From: Butyrivibrio fibrisolvens
GTDB taxonomy: Bacteria; Bacillota; Clostridia; Lachnospirales; Lachnospiraceae
Direction: 5' to 3'
Length of the DNA stretch: 64,000 nucleotides
Assembly: GCF_023206215.1 (NCBI RefSeq)
Contig: NZ_CP065800.1
Location: forward strand, 3,100,001-3,164,000
In this document: piece after piece, positions 7,509 through 56,851 of the stretch
Layout of the letters: every line of letters starts with the position of its first letter
How positions within the stretch are numbered: position 1 is the stretch's first letter
Position numbers and translations under genes: made by a program
Notes under the pieces: generated by a model
The model's database searches: none
What the model was told of the DNA's origin: nothing
The model's input: only the letters and a program-made list of their open reading frames with translations

Positions 7509-7534
7509 AGTTATATACAATGATATATAGCTAT

Positions 7535-39508: not shown

Positions 39509-39528
39509 AACTATGTGTTTTAATGATT

Positions 39529-40464: not shown

Positions 40465-40492
40465 ATGGGCCTCCTACTCTTTTTTCTATCAT

Positions 40493-40554
40493 GAAACTTC
40501 GCATTTTCCAAACATATATCACTCCTTGTAAATGTTTGACAAATGCGAAGTTTC
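40493..40554. repeat. Palindrome P4, 62 bp
   Basis: GAAACTTCGCATTTtcCAAACATaTA pairs with TaAATGTTTGacAAATGCGAAGTTTC. The ends (GAAACTTCGCA) match the solitary tips at 39529 and 44026-44046. It lies between the AlkD gene stop and the aldo-keto reductase start. It has no U-run, so it is not a good terminator. Confidence 0.7.
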
Positions 40555-40622
40555 TATTTTTAATATTCAAAAAACACTTTTGGTAACACCTGGAAGATTT
40601 GACTTGGCCAGGCTTTATATGT

Positions 40623-49201: not shown

Positions 49202-50560
49202 TCAAGCCTCTCTGAACATAGCTCTTACTGTGAAGCACATGGTGATAAAGCAAGCAAGTCCTCCCACCACATTGCTGATAGGCTCTGCTGCAAAAACTCC
49301 GTTTGTTCCCATTTTAAACAGATAAGGAAGCATGTAGGTAAGTGGCACTACTATGACAACTTTTCTAAAAAGTGAGAAGAATATAGCCTTGCCTTTAAGT
49401 CCCAGTGACTTAAAGGTTACCTGACCTGTATGCTGGAATGTCATAAAAATAAATGTCGAGAAATACAGATTAAAGGCAGGGATTGCATCAGAAAGGATAG
49501 TCTTATCATCACTGAATATACCGATTATATAGGCCGGGAAGAATCTGATGATCAGCCATATGGATACAGAATAGATCATATCAAGGATGAACATTATCAC
49601 GATCGCATGCTTTATCCTGCCTGGCCTTTTGGCACCGTAGTTATAACTTATGATAGGTGATGCACCTTCTGTAATAGCAAGGATAGGTGTCTCCATCATC
49701 TGCCTTGCACTATTGACTATTGTCATAATAGATACGTAGATGTCTCCGCCTACAGCTGACAGCACGTTGTTACAGGATATCTGGACTACAGCGTTGGTAA
49801 ACTGCATTATAAAAGCTGCTGTACCAAGTCCTATGATGTTTCTGGCTCTTTTGCCGCACTTTTTGATCTCATCTATGGTCAGGAAGTGAAGTCTGTACTT
49901 ACTGTCTTTTCTTAACAGGAACTTCATAACATAAGCTGCGGACAATGCCTGTGAGATGATAGTCGCAAGCGCAGCGCCTCTTATTCCCATGCCCAAAAAG
50001 AATATGAACACCGGATCAAGGATGATATTGGTAACAGCTCCGACAACGACTGTCGTCATGCCTATCACAGAGAAGCCCTGGGCTGTGATGAAGGGGTTCA
50101 TCCCTGTTGCCACCATTGAGAAGATGGTTCCAAGAAGATATATACGAAGGTATGGAAGTGCATATGCCATGTTCGACTCTGACGTTCCGAAGACGCTTAA
50201 TATCGGCTGCCCGAACAGCTCTCCGACTGCGATAAGCACAGCTCCTGTCACCACCAAAAGAAAGAATGACGTATTCTGAAGAGCAGCTGCTTCCTTATCA
50301 TCTTTTTTGCCCCTTGCTATAGAAAAAAGTGGTGCGCCGCCGCTTCCATACATGTTGGTAAAACCGGTGATCAGGATGACTATAGGAAAACAAAGTCCTA
50401 CTGCTCCAAGAGCTTTCGTTCCTATAATCGGTATTCTTGCAATATATATCCTGTCTACTATGTTGTAGAGCAGGTTCAAGATCTGCGCAACCATCATAGG
50501 CAGCGCTGTCGCAAGTATGTTATTTAAAGTTCTTCCTTTTTCAAAATCAATCTGTTTCAT
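49202..50560 (-). CDS. MATE-family efflux protein
   Basis: 452 residues, 12 membrane segments in two six-helix halves. It starts LNNILATALPMMVAQILNLL and has ILITGFTNMYGSGGAPLFSI, NPFITAQGFSVIGMTTVVVG and EGASPIISYNYGAKRPGRIK, standard MATE landmarks. It exports cations or drugs against Na+ or H+. Palindrome P3 lies just upstream and a solitary tip just downstream. The substrate is unknown. Confidence 0.93.
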   Translation of the reverse strand: MKQIDFEKGRTLNNILATALPMMVAQILNLLYNIVDRIYIARIPIIGTKALGAVGLCFPIVILITGFTNMYGSGGAPLFSIARGKKDDKEAAALQNTSFFLLVVTGAVLIAVGELFGQPILSVFGTSESNMAYALPYLRIYLLGTIFSMVATGMNPFITAQGFSVIGMTTVVVGAVTNIILDPVFIFFLGMGIRGAALATIISQALSAAYVMKFLLRKDSKYRLHFLTIDEIKKCGKRARNIIGLGTAAFIMQFTNAVVQISCNNVLSAVGGDIYVSIMTIVNSARQMMETPILAITEGASPIISYNYGAKRPGRIKHAIVIMFILDMIYSVSIWLIIRFFPAYIIGIFSDDKTILSDAIPAFNLYFSTFIFMTFQHTGQVTFKSLGLKGKAIFFSLFRKVVIVVPLTYMLPYLFKMGTNGVFAAEPISNVVGGLACFITMCFTVRAMFREA

Positions 50561-50586
50561 AACTACTTCCTGTTAAAGAATTTTTT

Positions 50587-50703
50587 CAAATTTCTCACTT
50601 GCTAAACATACGCTACCCTCTGAGACAGAGCCGATACGACCCGTTTATAATACATTTTCGTATCAGCTCTGCCGTAGCGCGTGTTTGGCAAGTACAAAGT
50701 TTG
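50587..50703. repeat. Palindrome P3, 117 bp
   Basis: CAAATTTCTCACTTGCTAAA, CGCTAC and CAGAGCCGATACGA pair with TCGTATCAGCTCTG, GTAGCG and TTTGGCAAGTACAAAGTTTG; the outer 30-bp arms match at ~23 positions. Its ends share the ACTTG core of the P1 and P2 tips. It fills the gap between the esterase stop and the MATE start. Confidence 0.7.
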
Positions 50704-50709
50704 AGTATG

Positions 50710-51375
50710 TTATTCAGTAATGTACTCTTTCATATTCTCAAATACTACTTCATATGCATCTGACCACATATGGATTCCGTCTATAGAATATTCTTCTTTG
50801 GTCTGACCATCATCTCCTGTAAGACCCTTATTAACATCTATATAGCTGTATCCAAATTCCTGTGCAAGCTCACTTACTGCTTTGTTACTCTCATCAAGTC
50901 TTTCAAGTCGCAGCTTTGCAGCCTTGTCAGCATCAGGCCAGGGCTGCCTTGCAGCGACCTGTACATTTACAGGATAGTAGGCCATCATATAGACCTTAGC
51001 TTGGGGCAGTCTGTCTTTTATCTGAGTCAGCACCTTGCGATAATCTGATATAAGCTGCTCTTTAGTCTCTTCTGGCCTGCTGATATCATTGGTCCCTATG
51101 TTGATGAAGATCTTGGATGGTTCTAATTCAAATATCTGCTCTTCCATAGATTCTAGCATCTCAGGAATTGTATATCCGCCTATTCCGCGGTTATAGATAA
51201 CTGTGTTCATGCCATGATTTTGCAGGATCTCATTTATAGGAAACTGCTCCATAAGAGATGATCCTGTAAACAGGATCTGCCCCTTCTTAACGAACCTGTT
51301 AAGATGCCGATACCTAACAACCTTATTCCTCTTCTCATTTTGAAAAAAATCACTTATAACTTCTTCTGCTTTCAT
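50710..51375 (-). CDS. SGNH/GDSL-family lipase-esterase
   Basis: 221 residues, start 51375 (MKAEEV) behind GGGAGGGTGTACA; an earlier in-frame start would lie in palindrome P1. The SGNH blocks are QILFTGSSLMEQFPI (Ser), NRGIGGYTIPEM (Gly), FINIGTNDISRPEE (Asn) and YSIDGIHMWSDAY (Asp/His). Such small enzymes deacylate lipids or sugars in the cytoplasm. It is divergent from the LysR regulator, with palindromes P1 and P2 in between, so it is a likely target of that regulator. Confidence 0.9.
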   Translation of the reverse strand: MKAEEVISDFFQNEKRNKVVRYRHLNRFVKKGQILFTGSSLMEQFPINEILQNHGMNTVIYNRGIGGYTIPEMLESMEEQIFELEPSKIFINIGTNDISRPEETKEQLISDYRKVLTQIKDRLPQAKVYMMAYYPVNVQVAARQPWPDADKAAKLRLERLDESNKAVSELAQEFGYSYIDVNKGLTGDDGQTKEEYSIDGIHMWSDAYEVVFENMKEYITE

Positions 51376-51396
51376 TGTACACCCTCCCGGTTTTCC

Positions 51397-51684
51397 AAAC
51401 TTTCCACTTGTTAAGCTGACGCCCCGCCGGATTTGATGGCACTGGCAGTTTATAAGTGTTATTCGCATCTTGATAGTTTTAGTAATTCAAGGCATGATAT
51501 CTGAATCTTTATATTCCAGGGTCCAAACTCGCTTCGCTCAGACAGGTGGACCCTATGCGGAATATAAAGATTCATCTATCAAGCTCTTGAATTAACTAAA
51601 ACTCTCAAAGCTGCTAATAACACTTGTAAACTGCCAGTGCCATCAAATCCGGCTGAGTGAAAGATATAGAAAAGTGGAAAGTTT
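51397..51684. repeat. Palindrome P1, 288 bp, with conserved centre
   Basis: Tips AAACTTTCCACTT / AAGTGGAAAGTTT. Arms include a perfect 26-bp pair (CCGGATTTGATGGCACTGGC + AGTTTA at 51427-51452; inverse at 51627-51652). The centre is GGGTCCA - 21 nt - TGGACCC (51519-51553); the loop AACTCGCTTcGCTCAGACAgG is the reverse complement of the P2 loop at 19 of 21 positions. It lies 21 bp before the esterase ATG. No protein or known element is apparent. Confidence 0.9.
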
Positions 51685-51772
51685 ATATATGATATGTATT
51701 CTAGCATTCAGCTCTGCTTCAAAGCGCATACAAACCGTCTGCATATAATCTATTTTACATACCGTTGCCTTA

Positions 51773-51815
51773 TTAGTGAAATTACTTATAATTATAAATA
51801 TATAAGTTACACTAA
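51773..51815. promoter_or_regulatory. Candidate LysR-type operator between P1 and P2
   Basis: TTAGTG and TACTTATA pair with TATAAGTTA and CACTAA around an AT-rich centre that contains TATAAT-like boxes for both directions. It sits midway between the divergent esterase and LysR genes, as LysR operators usually do. The assignment is inferred from position. Confidence 0.4.
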
Positions 51816-51845
51816 TATAGTCAATACCAACCATACAATAACTCA

Positions 51846-52180
51846 GACTTCCCACTTGGACGGCGGCGTATCAGCCGAAGGCATTTTTAGATGCAGAGAT
51901 ACGTGGAGCTCAGACGGGCAGTATATAATTCATTGCCACGCTTTTTAATCGTTTTATAAAATTCATGAGCGTGATAGATGGAGTATTTTATTCTGCCCGG
52001 GGTCCACATGTCTGAGCTAAGCGAGTTTGGACCCCAGAATAAAATGCTACAGATATCATGCCATGAATTTATAAAACGATTAACAGCGCGGCAATGAATT
52101 ATATACTGCCCGTCTGAGCTCCACGTACCTCTGCATCAAAAAATGTCTTCGCTGATACGCCGCCGTCCAAGTGGGAAGTC
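51846..52180. repeat. Palindrome P2, 335 bp, with conserved centre
   Basis: The terminal 30 bp (GACTTCCCACTTGGACGGCG + GCGTATCAGC, 51846-51875) are perfectly inverted at 52151-52180. A perfect 38-bp inner pair starts at TACGTGGAGCTCAGACGGGC. Arms of ~150 bp are ~90% complementary. The centre is GGGGTCCA - 21 nt - TGGACCCC (51999-52035). The right end lies 31 bp before the LysR start. No protein is encoded and no known repeat family is recognised. Confidence 0.92.
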
Positions 52181-52211
52181 GCCCAACACTACACCCTATG
52201 AGGAGTGGACT

Positions 52212-53117
52212 ATGATTTCAAACTTGGATTATTATAAGGCGTTTTTTTATGTTGCGACTTATTCGTCTTTTTCTGATGCGGCGAAGGCTTTGTATATATC
52301 ACAATCTGCAGTTAGTCAGACTATCAAGAAGCTGGAAGAAGAGCTTGGCACTACTTTGTTTGTAAGAAGCGGGTCACGGATTGTTCTAACGCCTTCAGGC
52401 GAGCTTCTTTTTGCCAGGGTCAAGACTGCTTTTAACGAATTTCAAAAAGCCGAGATTGAGATCCAAAACTTTGAATCTATAGTGCAAAATAATATCTCCG
52501 TAGGCATTACAGAGACAAGCCTTCGCTACGGCTTTTTTGACTGCCTTGAGAAGTTCAAGAACCGCCATCCTGACGTACATCTGTCCATATCAGGTAACAC
52601 AACTCCTGAAATGGTCTCATTTTTAAGAGATGGCAAGATCGACTTTGCACTTATGATAATCTCTGATTCTCTGGCAGCTAGATTTCAGGATCTCAAGATG
52701 CGACGATGCTTCCGGATACAGGATATATTTATAGCTTCCAGTAAGATGGATATTGATTTTGATAGAGAATATGACCTCAAAGATCTGCTAAGCTACCCGA
52801 CAATATCTGTATCACAGATCAGTAATTTCAGGGAAAACATTGATACTTTTTTCCAAGAGAACGGGCTACTGTTTCAGCCAACTTATATCCTTGAAAATAT
52901 GACTCAGGTTCTTAATTTCACCAAAAGAAAATTTGGCATAGGTGTTTTGCCTTACGCCTATGCCAAAGATGATATCAAAAAAGGAACTATTAGAATCGTA
53001 AATACAAAGCCTATTCCCAAAAGGACGGTCTATCTGGTAAGTCTTAAGGATAAGGCCTTATCCGGATTGGGTCTTGAGCTGTACAATGATTTCAAGGATC
53101 TGCCTCGAATGGTATAA
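52212..53117 (+). CDS. LysR-family transcriptional regulator
   Basis: 301 residues. The start is 52212 (MISNLDYYK), with AGGAG 6 nt upstream; a longer frame runs into palindrome P2 and is unlikely. The N-terminal HTH is clear (ATYSSFSDAAKALYISQSAV, SQTIKKLEEELGTTLFVRSG), followed by the periplasmic-binding-like effector domain (VGITETSLRYGFFDCLEKFK to about 295). It probably regulates the divergent esterase and itself. The effector is unknown. Confidence 0.93.
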   Translation: MISNLDYYKAFFYVATYSSFSDAAKALYISQSAVSQTIKKLEEELGTTLFVRSGSRIVLTPSGELLFARVKTAFNEFQKAEIEIQNFESIVQNNISVGITETSLRYGFFDCLEKFKNRHPDVHLSISGNTTPEMVSFLRDGKIDFALMIISDSLAARFQDLKMRRCFRIQDIFIASSKMDIDFDREYDLKDLLSYPTISVSQISNFRENIDTFFQENGLLFQPTYILENMTQVLNFTKRKFGIGVLPYAYAKDDIKKGTIRIVNTKPIPKRTVYLVSLKDKALSGLGLELYNDFKDLPRMV

Positions 53118-53142
53118 ATATTAGATATATCCGATCTTTAAA

Positions 53143-54120
53143 CTATAGCCCCACATAACCGCATGCTTCTATCATTGTCTGACCCTCATCAGAGAGCAGC
53201 CAGTTTACTAGCTTTATGACATTTTCATTGGTATTATCTTTTCTATATATCACATAGAAATTTGCAGATATAGGGTAAGATCCATTTCTGATGCTCTCAG
53301 CACTTGGATATATACCATTTATAGACAGCATCTTAACGTTATCATTGGCTACCATGCCTGACAGATAATACCTGAATGAATAGCCGATTGCCCCTCCAAA
53401 TATCGAAAGAGGATCTCGGCTATGTATCATGTCACCTTCCATGAATGACTCCATCATGGTCTGGCTTCCTGATCCTTCGATCCTAAGAAGCGGATTGATA
53501 AGGCGGTCAGGTCCGCCGACTTCATCCCAGTTCCTAATGGTGCCTCTGTATATTTCTCTTATCTGGTCTATTGTAAGATTCTCAGTTGGGTTATCTTTAC
53601 TTACAAAAAACACAAATGCTTCAAGACCTATTGGCACTATCTCAAGCTCTGCGCCCATATCACTGGCATTCTCAAGCTGCTCTCTTGATGGATAAGCTGT
53701 AAAGAAGAGATCAACAGAGCCTTCTAACATGGCATTATATCCCCTGATAGTGTTCTGGAACTGCATAGCACTGCCACTTGCGAAGTTCTCTCCATACTTG
53801 TTGTCATCAGAAAACTCGCCGCCTTCATAAGTCACGCATCCCTCAGGATAGATATTATCAATAACTGAAGCATATACAGGAACAAGCGCTGCTGCCCCGT
53901 CCAGAACGGGAAGATCATCATCTTCTTTTAAATAAAATGAAGATCCTGTTCTTGCAAGGTTCGACTCCTCTTCAAAGGGAAGAAAACTGCCCACATCTAC
54001 CATTTTGTTCTTGGTAGCATCACTATAGTTATTACCAAGTCGCCTTGTGATCGTCATATACATAAACAGATTGATCAGAAGGAAAAACATGGCTGTGAGT
54101 ATAATGATAACCTTCTTCAA
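53143..54120 (-). CDS. PstS-like substrate-binding protein with N-terminal membrane anchor
   Basis: 325 residues. The start is TTG at 54120: AAGGAGAT lies 8 nt upstream of it but only 2 nt before the ATG at 54126. A single membrane anchor (KKVIIILTAMFFLLINLFMY) leads to the fold: GSAMQFQNTIRGYNAMLEGS, VDLFFTAYPSREQL, LRIEGSGSQTMMESFMEGDM (the S-G-S-x phosphate-type loop) and LVNWLLSDEGQTMIEACGYV. It resembles PstS/PBP-like phosphate-binding proteins, but no pst permease or ATPase is near. It ends tail to tail with the LysR gene. Confidence 0.85.
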   Translation of the reverse strand: MKKVIIILTAMFFLLINLFMYMTITRRLGNNYSDATKNKMVDVGSFLPFEEESNLARTGSSFYLKEDDDLPVLDGAAALVPVYASVIDNIYPEGCVTYEGGEFSDDNKYGENFASGSAMQFQNTIRGYNAMLEGSVDLFFTAYPSREQLENASDMGAELEIVPIGLEAFVFFVSKDNPTENLTIDQIREIYRGTIRNWDEVGGPDRLINPLLRIEGSGSQTMMESFMEGDMIHSRDPLSIFGGAIGYSFRYYLSGMVANDNVKMLSINGIYPSAESIRNGSYPISANFYVIYRKDNTNENVIKLVNWLLSDEGQTMIEACGYVGL

Positions 54121-55145: not shown

Positions 55146-56801
55146 CTACATCGTCATAAAATCATATGCCTTGTACGCTTCTCGTACCTTATCAGCCAGT
55201 TCGAACCTGGCATCACCTGCATACATTGCAGCTCCTTCAAAACACTTTCTTGCCTCGTCTTCTTTACCAAGGCCTTTTTTGGCTAAGCCCAGATCATAGT
55301 ATAGGCTCATCTTAGAGATTCTGTCTTTGCGACCTATAAGCCTTTGACTAAAAAGTGCTTCGGCCTTTTCATAATCTTCTTCTTTTAATGCAATAAGACC
55401 GGTAAGCCCTATAACTATATCACGTGAATTCTTATTTCCTTTGCCCTTATTTATATCTTTAACCAGATCATTTATCTTCTCAAGACACTTCTTTGCCTTG
55501 TCTATATCATTTTCGCCAATTGCTATCGCGCCTTCATAATACTCAAATGCTGCTAACCTGATTTTTTTTCTCTTATTCTTATCTCGCAATACTTCAAGCT
55601 TATCAAGTGCTTTGCTATACTCTGTAATATATATGCAGGAAGCTACATAATAATTTGACAGAAAGAAATGCTTTCCGGTCTTTCCTCGAAGGAATCTTCG
55701 ATTATCTTCCAGCTGTTCATACATTTCGCAATATCTGTAAGGATCACAATCTTCTGAGAGAACCCTTGATATATTCAGAAAGAACTTTGTTGCCCTGTAA
55801 ATATATAAAACCACAGCTTGAAAAATAATATAATAAACGCATATAAGCATAAAGTGAAAATTCTGATCATTTCCAAGTAGTATGATTCCCGGAATATAAA
55901 GAAACAATCCTACAAAACTAAGTAGTATCAGCACTATAAATTCAATTATAGCAAAAGCTAATGTAAGAAAATACTTTATCTTTAACCTGTTCCAATATTT
56001 TATAAAAAAGTTCGCTGTTTCATTTGCATTAAATTTCTTGGTATCAACCTTAAAATCAGATTCTGTAATGATCACACAGGCAAGAATGATACAATACATG
56101 CTGCTTAGAATACTACAGATAGGCAGAACATAAGGCGACATCTGTGCTCCGGTATTAATAAGAGCATGAGTCATCACGCATAGCCACAGGCTGCCGGACT
56201 TTATATATATAACTGATAATATAAAACAGTTAGTAAGAAGCCCTATCAGGAAAAATACTATATCTGAAGCAGAATAAAAATATATGCTTCCATCAATGCA
56301 AAAATATAAGATATGCCATAGGCTCCAGGCAATAAAGGTTATGATGGTAGAAGCTACATATGGAAACCTTTTTTCCATCTCAGGCTGGAAAGTATATCTC
56401 CATCCGATTTCTTCTATCCCGCCAAAAAGTATTGCCTTAAGGAATATAAGTAAAGGCATGGCAGGACTTTCGATCACAAAGCCCTCTCCTGTTATCACTG
56501 CGGCAAAATCAATTATAAGAAATAATACTATAAGTATATAAAACTTTACCGGCTGTTTGATTTTAAAAAAATCCGTTACTATATCTTTAATAGTTTTATT
56601 ATTGTATTTGTATTGGAATCGGGCGCCAAAAAAGGCTGTTGAAATGCCTCCTACTGCTATGAGAAGTAGTCCTATTGGAGATGTATAGCCGATCAAAACG
56701 TCAACAGCATTAAGAATTACAGCAATGATCGCAACTATCAGAGCCTGTACAAGTGACGGTATCAGGAATGCTGTATATATTTTTTTATTATCATAGTTCA
56801 T
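55146..56801 (-). CDS. CPBP intramembrane protease fused to a TPR domain
   Basis: 551 residues behind AAGGACAATGTAATA. Eight N-terminal membrane segments carry the CPBP motifs: GGIEEIGWRYTFQPEMEKRF (Glu-Glu-x3-Arg), AWSLWHILYF (His) and LCVMTHALINTGAQM (His-Asn). Two more segments follow near residues 285-345. The last ~200 residues are cytoplasmic helical repeats (EYYEGAIAIGENDIDKAKKC, MSLYYDLGLAKKGLGKEDEA), i.e. TPR. The combination suggests a regulated protease that recruits partners by its TPR tail. Substrate unknown. Confidence 0.85.
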   Translation of the reverse strand: MNYDNKKIYTAFLIPSLVQALIVAIIAVILNAVDVLIGYTSPIGLLLIAVGGISTAFFGARFQYKYNNKTIKDIVTDFFKIKQPVKFYILIVLFLIIDFAAVITGEGFVIESPAMPLLIFLKAILFGGIEEIGWRYTFQPEMEKRFPYVASTIITFIAWSLWHILYFCIDGSIYFYSASDIVFFLIGLLTNCFILSVIYIKSGSLWLCVMTHALINTGAQMSPYVLPICSILSSMYCIILACVIITESDFKVDTKKFNANETANFFIKYWNRLKIKYFLTLAFAIIEFIVLILLSFVGLFLYIPGIILLGNDQNFHFMLICVYYIIFQAVVLYIYRATKFFLNISRVLSEDCDPYRYCEMYEQLEDNRRFLRGKTGKHFFLSNYYVASCIYITEYSKALDKLEVLRDKNKRKKIRLAAFEYYEGAIAIGENDIDKAKKCLEKINDLVKDINKGKGNKNSRDIVIGLTGLIALKEEDYEKAEALFSQRLIGRKDRISKMSLYYDLGLAKKGLGKEDEARKCFEGAAMYAGDARFELADKVREAYKAYDFMTM

Positions 56802-56829: not shown

Positions 56830-56845
56830 CCGTCCAAGTGGGAAG
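56830..56845. repeat. Solitary repeat tip beyond the VOC gene
   Basis: CCGTCCAAGTGGGAAG, identical to the P2 tip core, 6 bp past the stop of the VOC gene and upstream of the CPBP-TPR start. No partner tip is seen nearby. Confidence 0.55.
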
Positions 56846-56851
56846 GTTGAA

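Follow-up and report, generated by a model that had tools for sequence, protein, structure and literature searches.

A transposed family of long palindromes with a recurrent hairpin tip in Butyrivibrio fibrisolvens

The intergenic hairpin repeats NEMIS, ERIC, YPAL and EFAR may act in RNA; we know of no loop that they have in common with the family considered here, and they can be likened to it by description only. For QMITE2 of Coxiella, the available part of the published description reports direct repeats of 7–9 bp, a predicted stable folded transcript and shortened derivatives (PMC10969869). REP elements, as presented in the accessible part of their description, are dispersed palindromes, GTAG- or CGTC-tagged, which occur in many phyla (PMC3733652). 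At the level of the single loop, DNA mini-hairpins in which a GNA or GNNA loop is combined with at least two G-C pairs are extraordinarily stable, according to the available text of the source (PMC4686876).

Here, we describe two long palindromes, P1 and P2, which lie back to back in a window of 64,000 nt (the whole stretch of DNA that was analysed; positions 3,100,001 to 3,164,000 of contig NZ_CP065800.1, assembly GCF_023206215.1) of Butyrivibrio fibrisolvens, together with the family to which they belong. The reading that we prefer, and hold to be rather probable, is that each of them is one copy of a foldback transposable element, non-autonomous and arranged around a modular hairpin core, whose tip would be its essential part and whose function we infer.

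P1, P2 and their family in the genome

P1 (288 bp, 51397..51684) and P2 (335 bp as extended, 51846..52180) are full-length foldback elements, found where the original prediction had placed them and with the tips that it had described. The loop strand of P1 is the minus strand and runs towards a gene for an SGNH-type esterase (50710..51376, minus strand), while that of P2 is the plus strand and runs towards a gene for a LysR-type regulator (52212..53117, plus strand); the names of both genes come from the earlier description and their start codons were set by eye. In P1, the 13-nt tips adjoining the SGNH gene (51397..51409) and on the side of P2 (51672..51684), both taken on the minus strand, are 100% paired, and a 46-nt arm is 93% paired. 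In P2, the left outer tip (51846..51875, GACTTCCCACTTGG..., of the terminal-inverted-repeat type) and the right one (52151..52180), both taken on the plus strand, close outer arms that are complementary at 30 of 30 positions and then at 93% over 70 nt. The predicted RNA folds reach –159.4 kcal/mol for P1 (z –20 against shuffles) and –248.6 kcal/mol for P2 (z –31 against shuffles). The apical 35-mer lies at 51519..51553 on the minus strand in P1 (GGGTCC-loop-GGACCC, apex GCGAAGC) and at 52000..52034 on the plus strand in P2 (apex GCTAAGC), and the two loops, CCTGTCTGAGCGAAGCGAGTT and CATGTCTGAGCTAAGCGAGTT, match at 19 of 21 positions, as had been stated. The 194-bp core of P2 (51917..52110, plus strand) is matched by many other copies, mostly with 84–93% identity. 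The claim that the arms of P1 and P2 are unrelated stands for the outer arms, which differ, and fails for the inner 140 nt, which are 79% alike in inverted orientation.

With the starts set by eye at 51376 (SGNH) and 52212 (LysR), the distances of 20 and 31 nt from the palindromes to the start codons hold, and we expect transcripts of the two genes to carry P1 and P2 as hairpins in their leaders. The LysR protein had no match at E<=1e-60 among 60 other genomes of the genus. Furthermore, family members lie on both sides of the SGNH gene, because opposite to P1 a 119-bp, internally shortened relative with like ends (50586..50704) lies between the ORF 49202–50560 and the 3′ end of this gene; another shortened relative with like ends, 64 bp long, is found at 40492..40555. 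Solitary terminal repeats at 39528, 44034 and 56835 of the window, the last of them (56835..56850, minus strand) immediately upstream of the ORF 55146–56801, are probably left over from deleted elements. Rfam gave no family at E<=1 in 50700–53200.

When the 784-bp region was used as a query, it produced 97 matches in its own genome. A pattern for the centre matched 52 places on the forward strand, against one for the reversed pattern, and further centre patterns, counted on the two strands, matched 56+77 places against 1+3 for the reversed control and 21+20 against 0. The loci fetched from this genome hold 101 near-perfect palindromes, of which 95 measure 250–350 bp; this number is a lower bound because the detection of copies was led by motifs, and one more full-length copy, outside the count, lies at genome position 3223465. 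Centre and tips are thus found well beyond P1 and P2, and their absence elsewhere, which the original prediction had named as the outcome that would speak against it, did not occur. In the common type, ends like AAACTTC[C/G]CACTTG are followed by the arms and then by GGGTCCA-loop-TGGACCC, and the paired variants GGGTCTG/CAGACCC and GGGGCTG/CAGCCCC of the centre are also found. One of the 101 copies was flagged inside an ORF of more than 150 aa, at the edge of a fetched stretch. At 3368454, a palindrome of 419 bp appears by eye to be an element nested in older arms. The elements at 7515 and 4112328 of the same contig (L094 and L112) are identical, including 60 nt of flank on each side, and lie near opposite contig ends, which suggests a repeated or overlapping contig end. 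A pattern search of genome_contigs gave five stretches that were judged to be chance.

The position in a 5′ leader, correct for P1 and P2, is not a general rule. With gene edges taken from a simple ORF caller, the gene that follows the loop strand in the 3′ direction presents its start in 47 copies and its end in 53, and none was found for one copy (n = 101). Of the two ends of the loop strand, the right (3′) one is closer to a gene edge (median 44 vs 192.5 bp; closer in 68 of 100 copies, the distance counts omitting the copy at 2217534, which is without a right neighbour). Neighbouring copies less than 1 kb apart are ordered (–,+) in 11 cases out of 11, with their left ends face to face, like P1 and P2. 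Orientation showed no bias between replication halves (p 0.97 over all half-splits of 98 chromosomal copies, the position of the origin not being fixed).

Ends, paired arms and tips

The family carries terminal inverted repeats of the type TCAAACTTC[G/C]CACTTG, and the end pattern, with at most three mismatches, occurs at 125+145 places, against 19+7 for the reversed control. Of 32 intact-ended copies, 14 carry exact direct repeats no shorter than 7 bp and 13 carry repeats no shorter than 8 bp, compared with 5.4% and 2.5% of shuffled flank pairs; with the duplicated locus removed, that is, with 7515 and 4112328 treated as one copy, these numbers become 13 and 12 among 31, compared with 5.2% and 2.5% for the 930 mismatched pairs. 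Repeats of this kind include TTTTATAA, TTATACTAA and TGTTATCTGA. These counts need an offset of the ends to be allowed for, since ends set too far in gave 0 of 32. Ends with exact direct repeats in 12 of 31 copies, against 2.5%, indicate a transposed, MITE-like foldback element; the transposition of the family is therefore demonstrated by target-site duplications, and the suggestion of a mobile palindrome is borne out by these repeats together with the 101 copies. In 18 of the 31 intact-ended copies, no direct repeat reaches 7 bp, and none are present at P1 or P2, which may be older insertions.

Shortened forms with ends of the same type measure 48, 49, 55, 64, 72, 75, 79, 119 and 181 bp. No transposase or autonomous partner bounded by such ends was noticed, among the matches listed, in 20 regions around extra ends. 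A comparison of the fetched loci with those of G339, apparently Butyrivibrio fibrisolvens D1, revealed shared sites, and one site that is filled in G339 and apparently holds only a right-end remnant in the genome of P1 and P2; in the search for empty sites, the best candidate has an apparent decayed remnant, and the other site aligned poorly. The palindromy of the flanks beyond the ends is marginal (0.430 vs 0.395 when shuffled, with 11 of 300 shuffles as high).

The outer arms are 88% paired within a copy and 49% alike across copies. Over 108 pairs in 100 distinct aligned rows, standard pairs fill 96.4% of the cells, vs 77.3% after shuffling, and both sides have changed in 92 of the 108 pairs, vs a maximum of 70 in 100 shuffles, the consensus structure for these counts having been taken from the very alignment that was scored. 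The maintenance of the paired hairpin by selection is well supported. Furthermore, bulge bases are both unpaired and conserved; for instance, columns 100 and 187 of the alignment hold an A in every one of the 100 rows. Such conserved bulges disfavour a simple homogenisation of the arms, which would erase these bases.

Because arm-to-arm conversion of DNA could also keep the pairing but should not favour wobble pairs, G-U was counted against A-C. On the loop strand, the mispairs of the outer arms comprise 92 G-U and 53 A-C (92:52 in distinct contexts, p 0.001; the two short copies 376458 and 2919136 are omitted), and all pairs of the alignment give 378:113, many of them shared by descent. Families elsewhere with unrelated arms, taken with one representative each, give 35:13 (p 0.002), and the ratio is likewise 35:13 in the clusters above the control threshold. 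According to gene setting, the ratio is 28:14 for sense, 27:15 for convergent, 17:7 for divergent and 20:17 for antisense copies, and the excess is thus weakest where transcription of the neighbouring gene does not include the loop strand (20:17 vs 72:36 for the others, Fisher p 0.17). The G-U excess on the loop strand suggests selection at the RNA level, although strand-biased loss of cytosine could be its source instead; from these counts, RNA would be the likely, not proven, acting molecule.

The apex of the hairpin reads GC-GNA-GC or GC-GNNA-GC in 97 of the 101 copies, and all 63 copies from three further genomes of the genus (G339, G357 and G331) also follow this rule. The conservation is partly built in on the 3′ side, as for most copies the 3′ AGC was already set by the motifs used in the search, which left only the 5′ GCG and the N free. 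The apex of P2 is one of the four departures from this rule in its genome. With DNA folding parameters the GNA apex gains no stability; its stability rests on the available part of PMC4686876, because the folding program does not reproduce it.

The clearest indication of how tips behave comes from an orthologous site at 3275780 in the genome of P1 and P2 and at 3405690 in G339 (L108 and L218). Here, the two genomes agree at 247 of 250 positions of the left flank, at 95 (left arm) and 93 (right arm) consecutive positions of the arms, and over 22 nt of the right flank before they diverge. The centres, of 66 and 65 nt, show many differences and are palindromic in both, and they resemble their closest counterparts among the other centres at 97% and 92%. 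The same arms with different centres of about 65 nt at an orthologous site therefore indicate that tips have been swapped as modules. At a second site (559898 and 209273), the centre is more divergent than the outer arms and, genome-wide, centre and outer arms single out the same closest copy in no more than 14 of 98 cases. Judged from these comparisons, tip exchange is clear at one site and is suggested for the whole genome, and the anticipated modular element has been borne out by centres swapped independently of arms.

Occurrence in other genomes

The core was matched in five of 61 genomes of the genus: clearly in its own genome, in G339 and in G357, a MAG that also carries the family, and more weakly in G331 (by the 25-bp centre only) and G306 (by a 27-bp piece). 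The genus genomes are mostly drafts, which may lose long palindromes, and the 56 genomes without a match are not a firm absence. The palindromes in G331, of 214 and 198 bp, share the loop but not the arms, look G+C-rich by eye and possibly lie on contaminant contigs. In the family scan beyond the genome of P1 and P2, single matches in G022 and G073 were judged to be chance, without folding.

Beyond the genome of P1 and P2, 12 of 397 genomes of the phylum contain the exact 19-mer of the tip, TGTYTGAGCGAAGCGAGTT (13 of 398 with that genome included), compared with none for the reversed control and an estimated chance expectation of about 0.02 genomes. The 19-mer is also found in Fusobacteriota, Bacteroidota and Gammaproteobacteria, on plasmids of Parabacteroides, Aureibacter, Ilyobacter and Marinobacter, and in 60 stretches of viral contigs. 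In an arm test on 95 loci with the 19-mer, which fall into 28 clusters and from which loci with fewer than 40 nt on either side were dropped, 19 clusters exceed the 99th percentile of the control (31.2, cross-cluster pairs), and 17 of these also exceed that of shuffled arms (37.8); the other nine are below the hairpin threshold. Hairpin arms beyond the control are present in Ilyobacter, Aureibacter and Marinobacter, and Parabacteroides is below the threshold (19.8–23.4) although its RNA fold is strong. Several other genomes each hold a few copies whose arms are shared and whose flanks differ. A bulge of the form GCGTTAAGAAA / TTTTAGC, as judged by eye, is seen again in several of these hairpins.

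A cluster of 39 loci (L234 and 38 similar viral-contig loci) has the 19-mer in a sequence that looks coding by eye, and has no hairpin arms; this may be coincidence or capture. L242 and seven similar viral-contig loci are, by eye, conserved up to the 19-mer and varied beyond it, and resemble the edge of an integrated element. No viral contig carries a tip of the Butyrivibrio type, phages gave weak partial matches in three records, and in E. coli eight inexact matches were found in 8 of 5426 genomes. Twenty places on the Ilyobacter plasmid were considered as copies and left uncounted, because the one extra match in the 35 kb inspected spans the right-hand flank of the query and nothing else; a loop probe found three places.

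In Bacteroidota-type loci (L225, L226, L229 and L238) the hairpin is near an HU gene, and Parabacteroides loci have a second hairpin, GGTTACTTTT..TCAAG..AAAAGTAAC or similar, after the first one. Across families, the neighbouring genes gave the HU/DUF4248 setting in Bacteroidota, and otherwise one weak pair and one self-match of a hairpin. The Bacteroidota-type hairpin L245 had no match among plasmids. With six relatives, Rfam returned four matches at E<=5, of which the only one that spans the loop is mir-3747, below threshold, on the Marinobacter hairpin; beside this hairpin, on the other strand, TwoAYGGAY scores just over its gathering score (L228, 2227–2351). An association with RAYT/IS200 was considered and rejected: Y1_Tnp is present in 9 of 10 genomes, both with and without the repeats, and the loop motif is present in 1 of 20 fetched Y1 loci. 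Literature searches with the literal loop and its reverse complement returned nothing relevant by title, a search for MSERSEF had no match, and in the literature searched no published description of these hairpins was found.

Proposed mechanism and known systems

If P1 and P2 are foldback transposable elements, as we prefer to read them, their TCAAACTTC[G/C]CACTTG ends would be moved by a putative enzyme that leaves duplications of about 8 bp, a movement that is itself demonstrated. The element, almost entirely self-paired, would fold into a single long hairpin whose internal bulges are fixed and whose tip is TGTYTGAGCGNAGCGAGTT. Its arms would drift yet stay paired, with the loop-strand hairpin, transcribed into leaders and intergenic RNA, being retained, as the G-U excess suggests. 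Tips are replaced between copies together with the symmetrical centre around them, as the orthologous site demonstrates; the route would probably be gene conversion, acting where a hairpin is extruded or nascent. A widely conserved factor would probably use the tip as a binding or structural site, and the recurrence of this tip in other phyla, on arms that are unrelated, argues that it is the essential part.

This shared tip on unrelated arms in distant bacteria would point to an unrecognised class of mobile hairpins. We therefore put forward, tentatively and with less confidence than the transposable nature of P1 and P2, a bacterial superfamily of mobile hairpins that would span no fewer than four phyla and be defined by one universal tip and a bulge pattern, not by ends or arms. 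Its ends would be host-specific, its arms rewritten yet paired and its tips traded as the unit of inheritance, and it would act as RNA (or single-stranded DNA) through a widely conserved partner. If true, this would be a widespread bacterial class of gene-free mobile hairpin that repeat catalogues based on sequence have overlooked, because arms and ends vary between lineages. It would also offer a natural example of long palindromes persisting at about 100 copies, an example of hairpin tips swapped as modules, and a direct test of whether RNA function or DNA repair maintains the pairing; TCAAACTTCGCACTTG is the family end sequence to search for.

Long palindromes may undergo arm-to-arm conversion, and this counts in favour of an ordinary, selfish MITE, in which the palindrome would be no more than long DNA inverted repeats, the pairing would be due to template switching or conversion between arms, and the tip would be functionless. 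Inverted ends, direct repeats and shortened derivatives, standard for MITEs in the available part of PMC10969869, agree with this explanation as well, but the mismatched bulges left uncorrected, the G-U pairs in excess of A-C and the identical tip on unrelated arms across several phyla make it unlikely. Another alternative is a single-stranded DNA hairpin element, whose tip would be a d(GNA) mini-hairpin read as DNA in replication or transfer, as HUH-type enzymes do; strand-biased loss of cytosine on exposed DNA would likewise yield G-T pairs. The apex fits the ultra-stable mini-hairpin rule in 97 of 101 and 63 of 63 copies, with the 3′ AGC mostly fixed by the motif (available part of PMC4686876), yet the orientation bias between replication halves that would be expected is absent (p 0.97) and Y1 transposases are found with and without the repeats. 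Direct repeats, moreover, are atypical of IS200/IS605 movement, and we regard such an element as improbable, more so than an ordinary MITE.

The setting of P1 and P2, 20 and 31 nt ahead of start codons, would also suit a domesticated cis-regulatory leader hairpin or an insulator for the adjacent genes, as would the proximity of the loop-strand 3′ end to gene edges (44 vs 192.5 bp) and the (–,+) order of the close pairs (11 of 11). However, gene ends (53) outnumber gene starts (47) as neighbours, and the 60 genus genomes searched with the LysR protein gave nothing at E<=1e-60, so that domestication is, of all these explanations, the one to which we give very little credence.

Returning to the foldback transposable element, the family is best filed as a kind of MITE with a universal tip, fixed bulges and tip exchange added. 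It is short, gene-free and multicopy (101 copies) and has terminal inverted repeats and target-site duplications; the MITE tests that could be run thus mostly agree, which is the reason for this filing, and the universal tip, the bulges and the tip exchange lie outside the definition. Like REPs, its members are dispersed palindromes; REPs, however, measure 20–40 bp in the accessible part of PMC3733652, with a tagged end and short loops, whereas the present elements are about 290 bp long (95 of 101 copies falling in the 250–350 bp range), their 19-nt loop is fixed and their ends have direct repeats. The apex has the same sequence and the same allowed variation as the d(GCGNAGC) DNA mini-hairpins, which in the available text of PMC4686876 are a chemical motif, while the present family is a mobile element. 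With QMITE2 of Coxiella, as far as the available part of PMC10969869 describes it, the family has in common that it is short, gene-free and multicopy, with inverted ends, direct repeats and shortened derivatives. Unlike in that description, almost the whole element is arm here, the arms vary widely between copies and yet pair, and the tip is common to hairpins with unrelated arms in other phyla.
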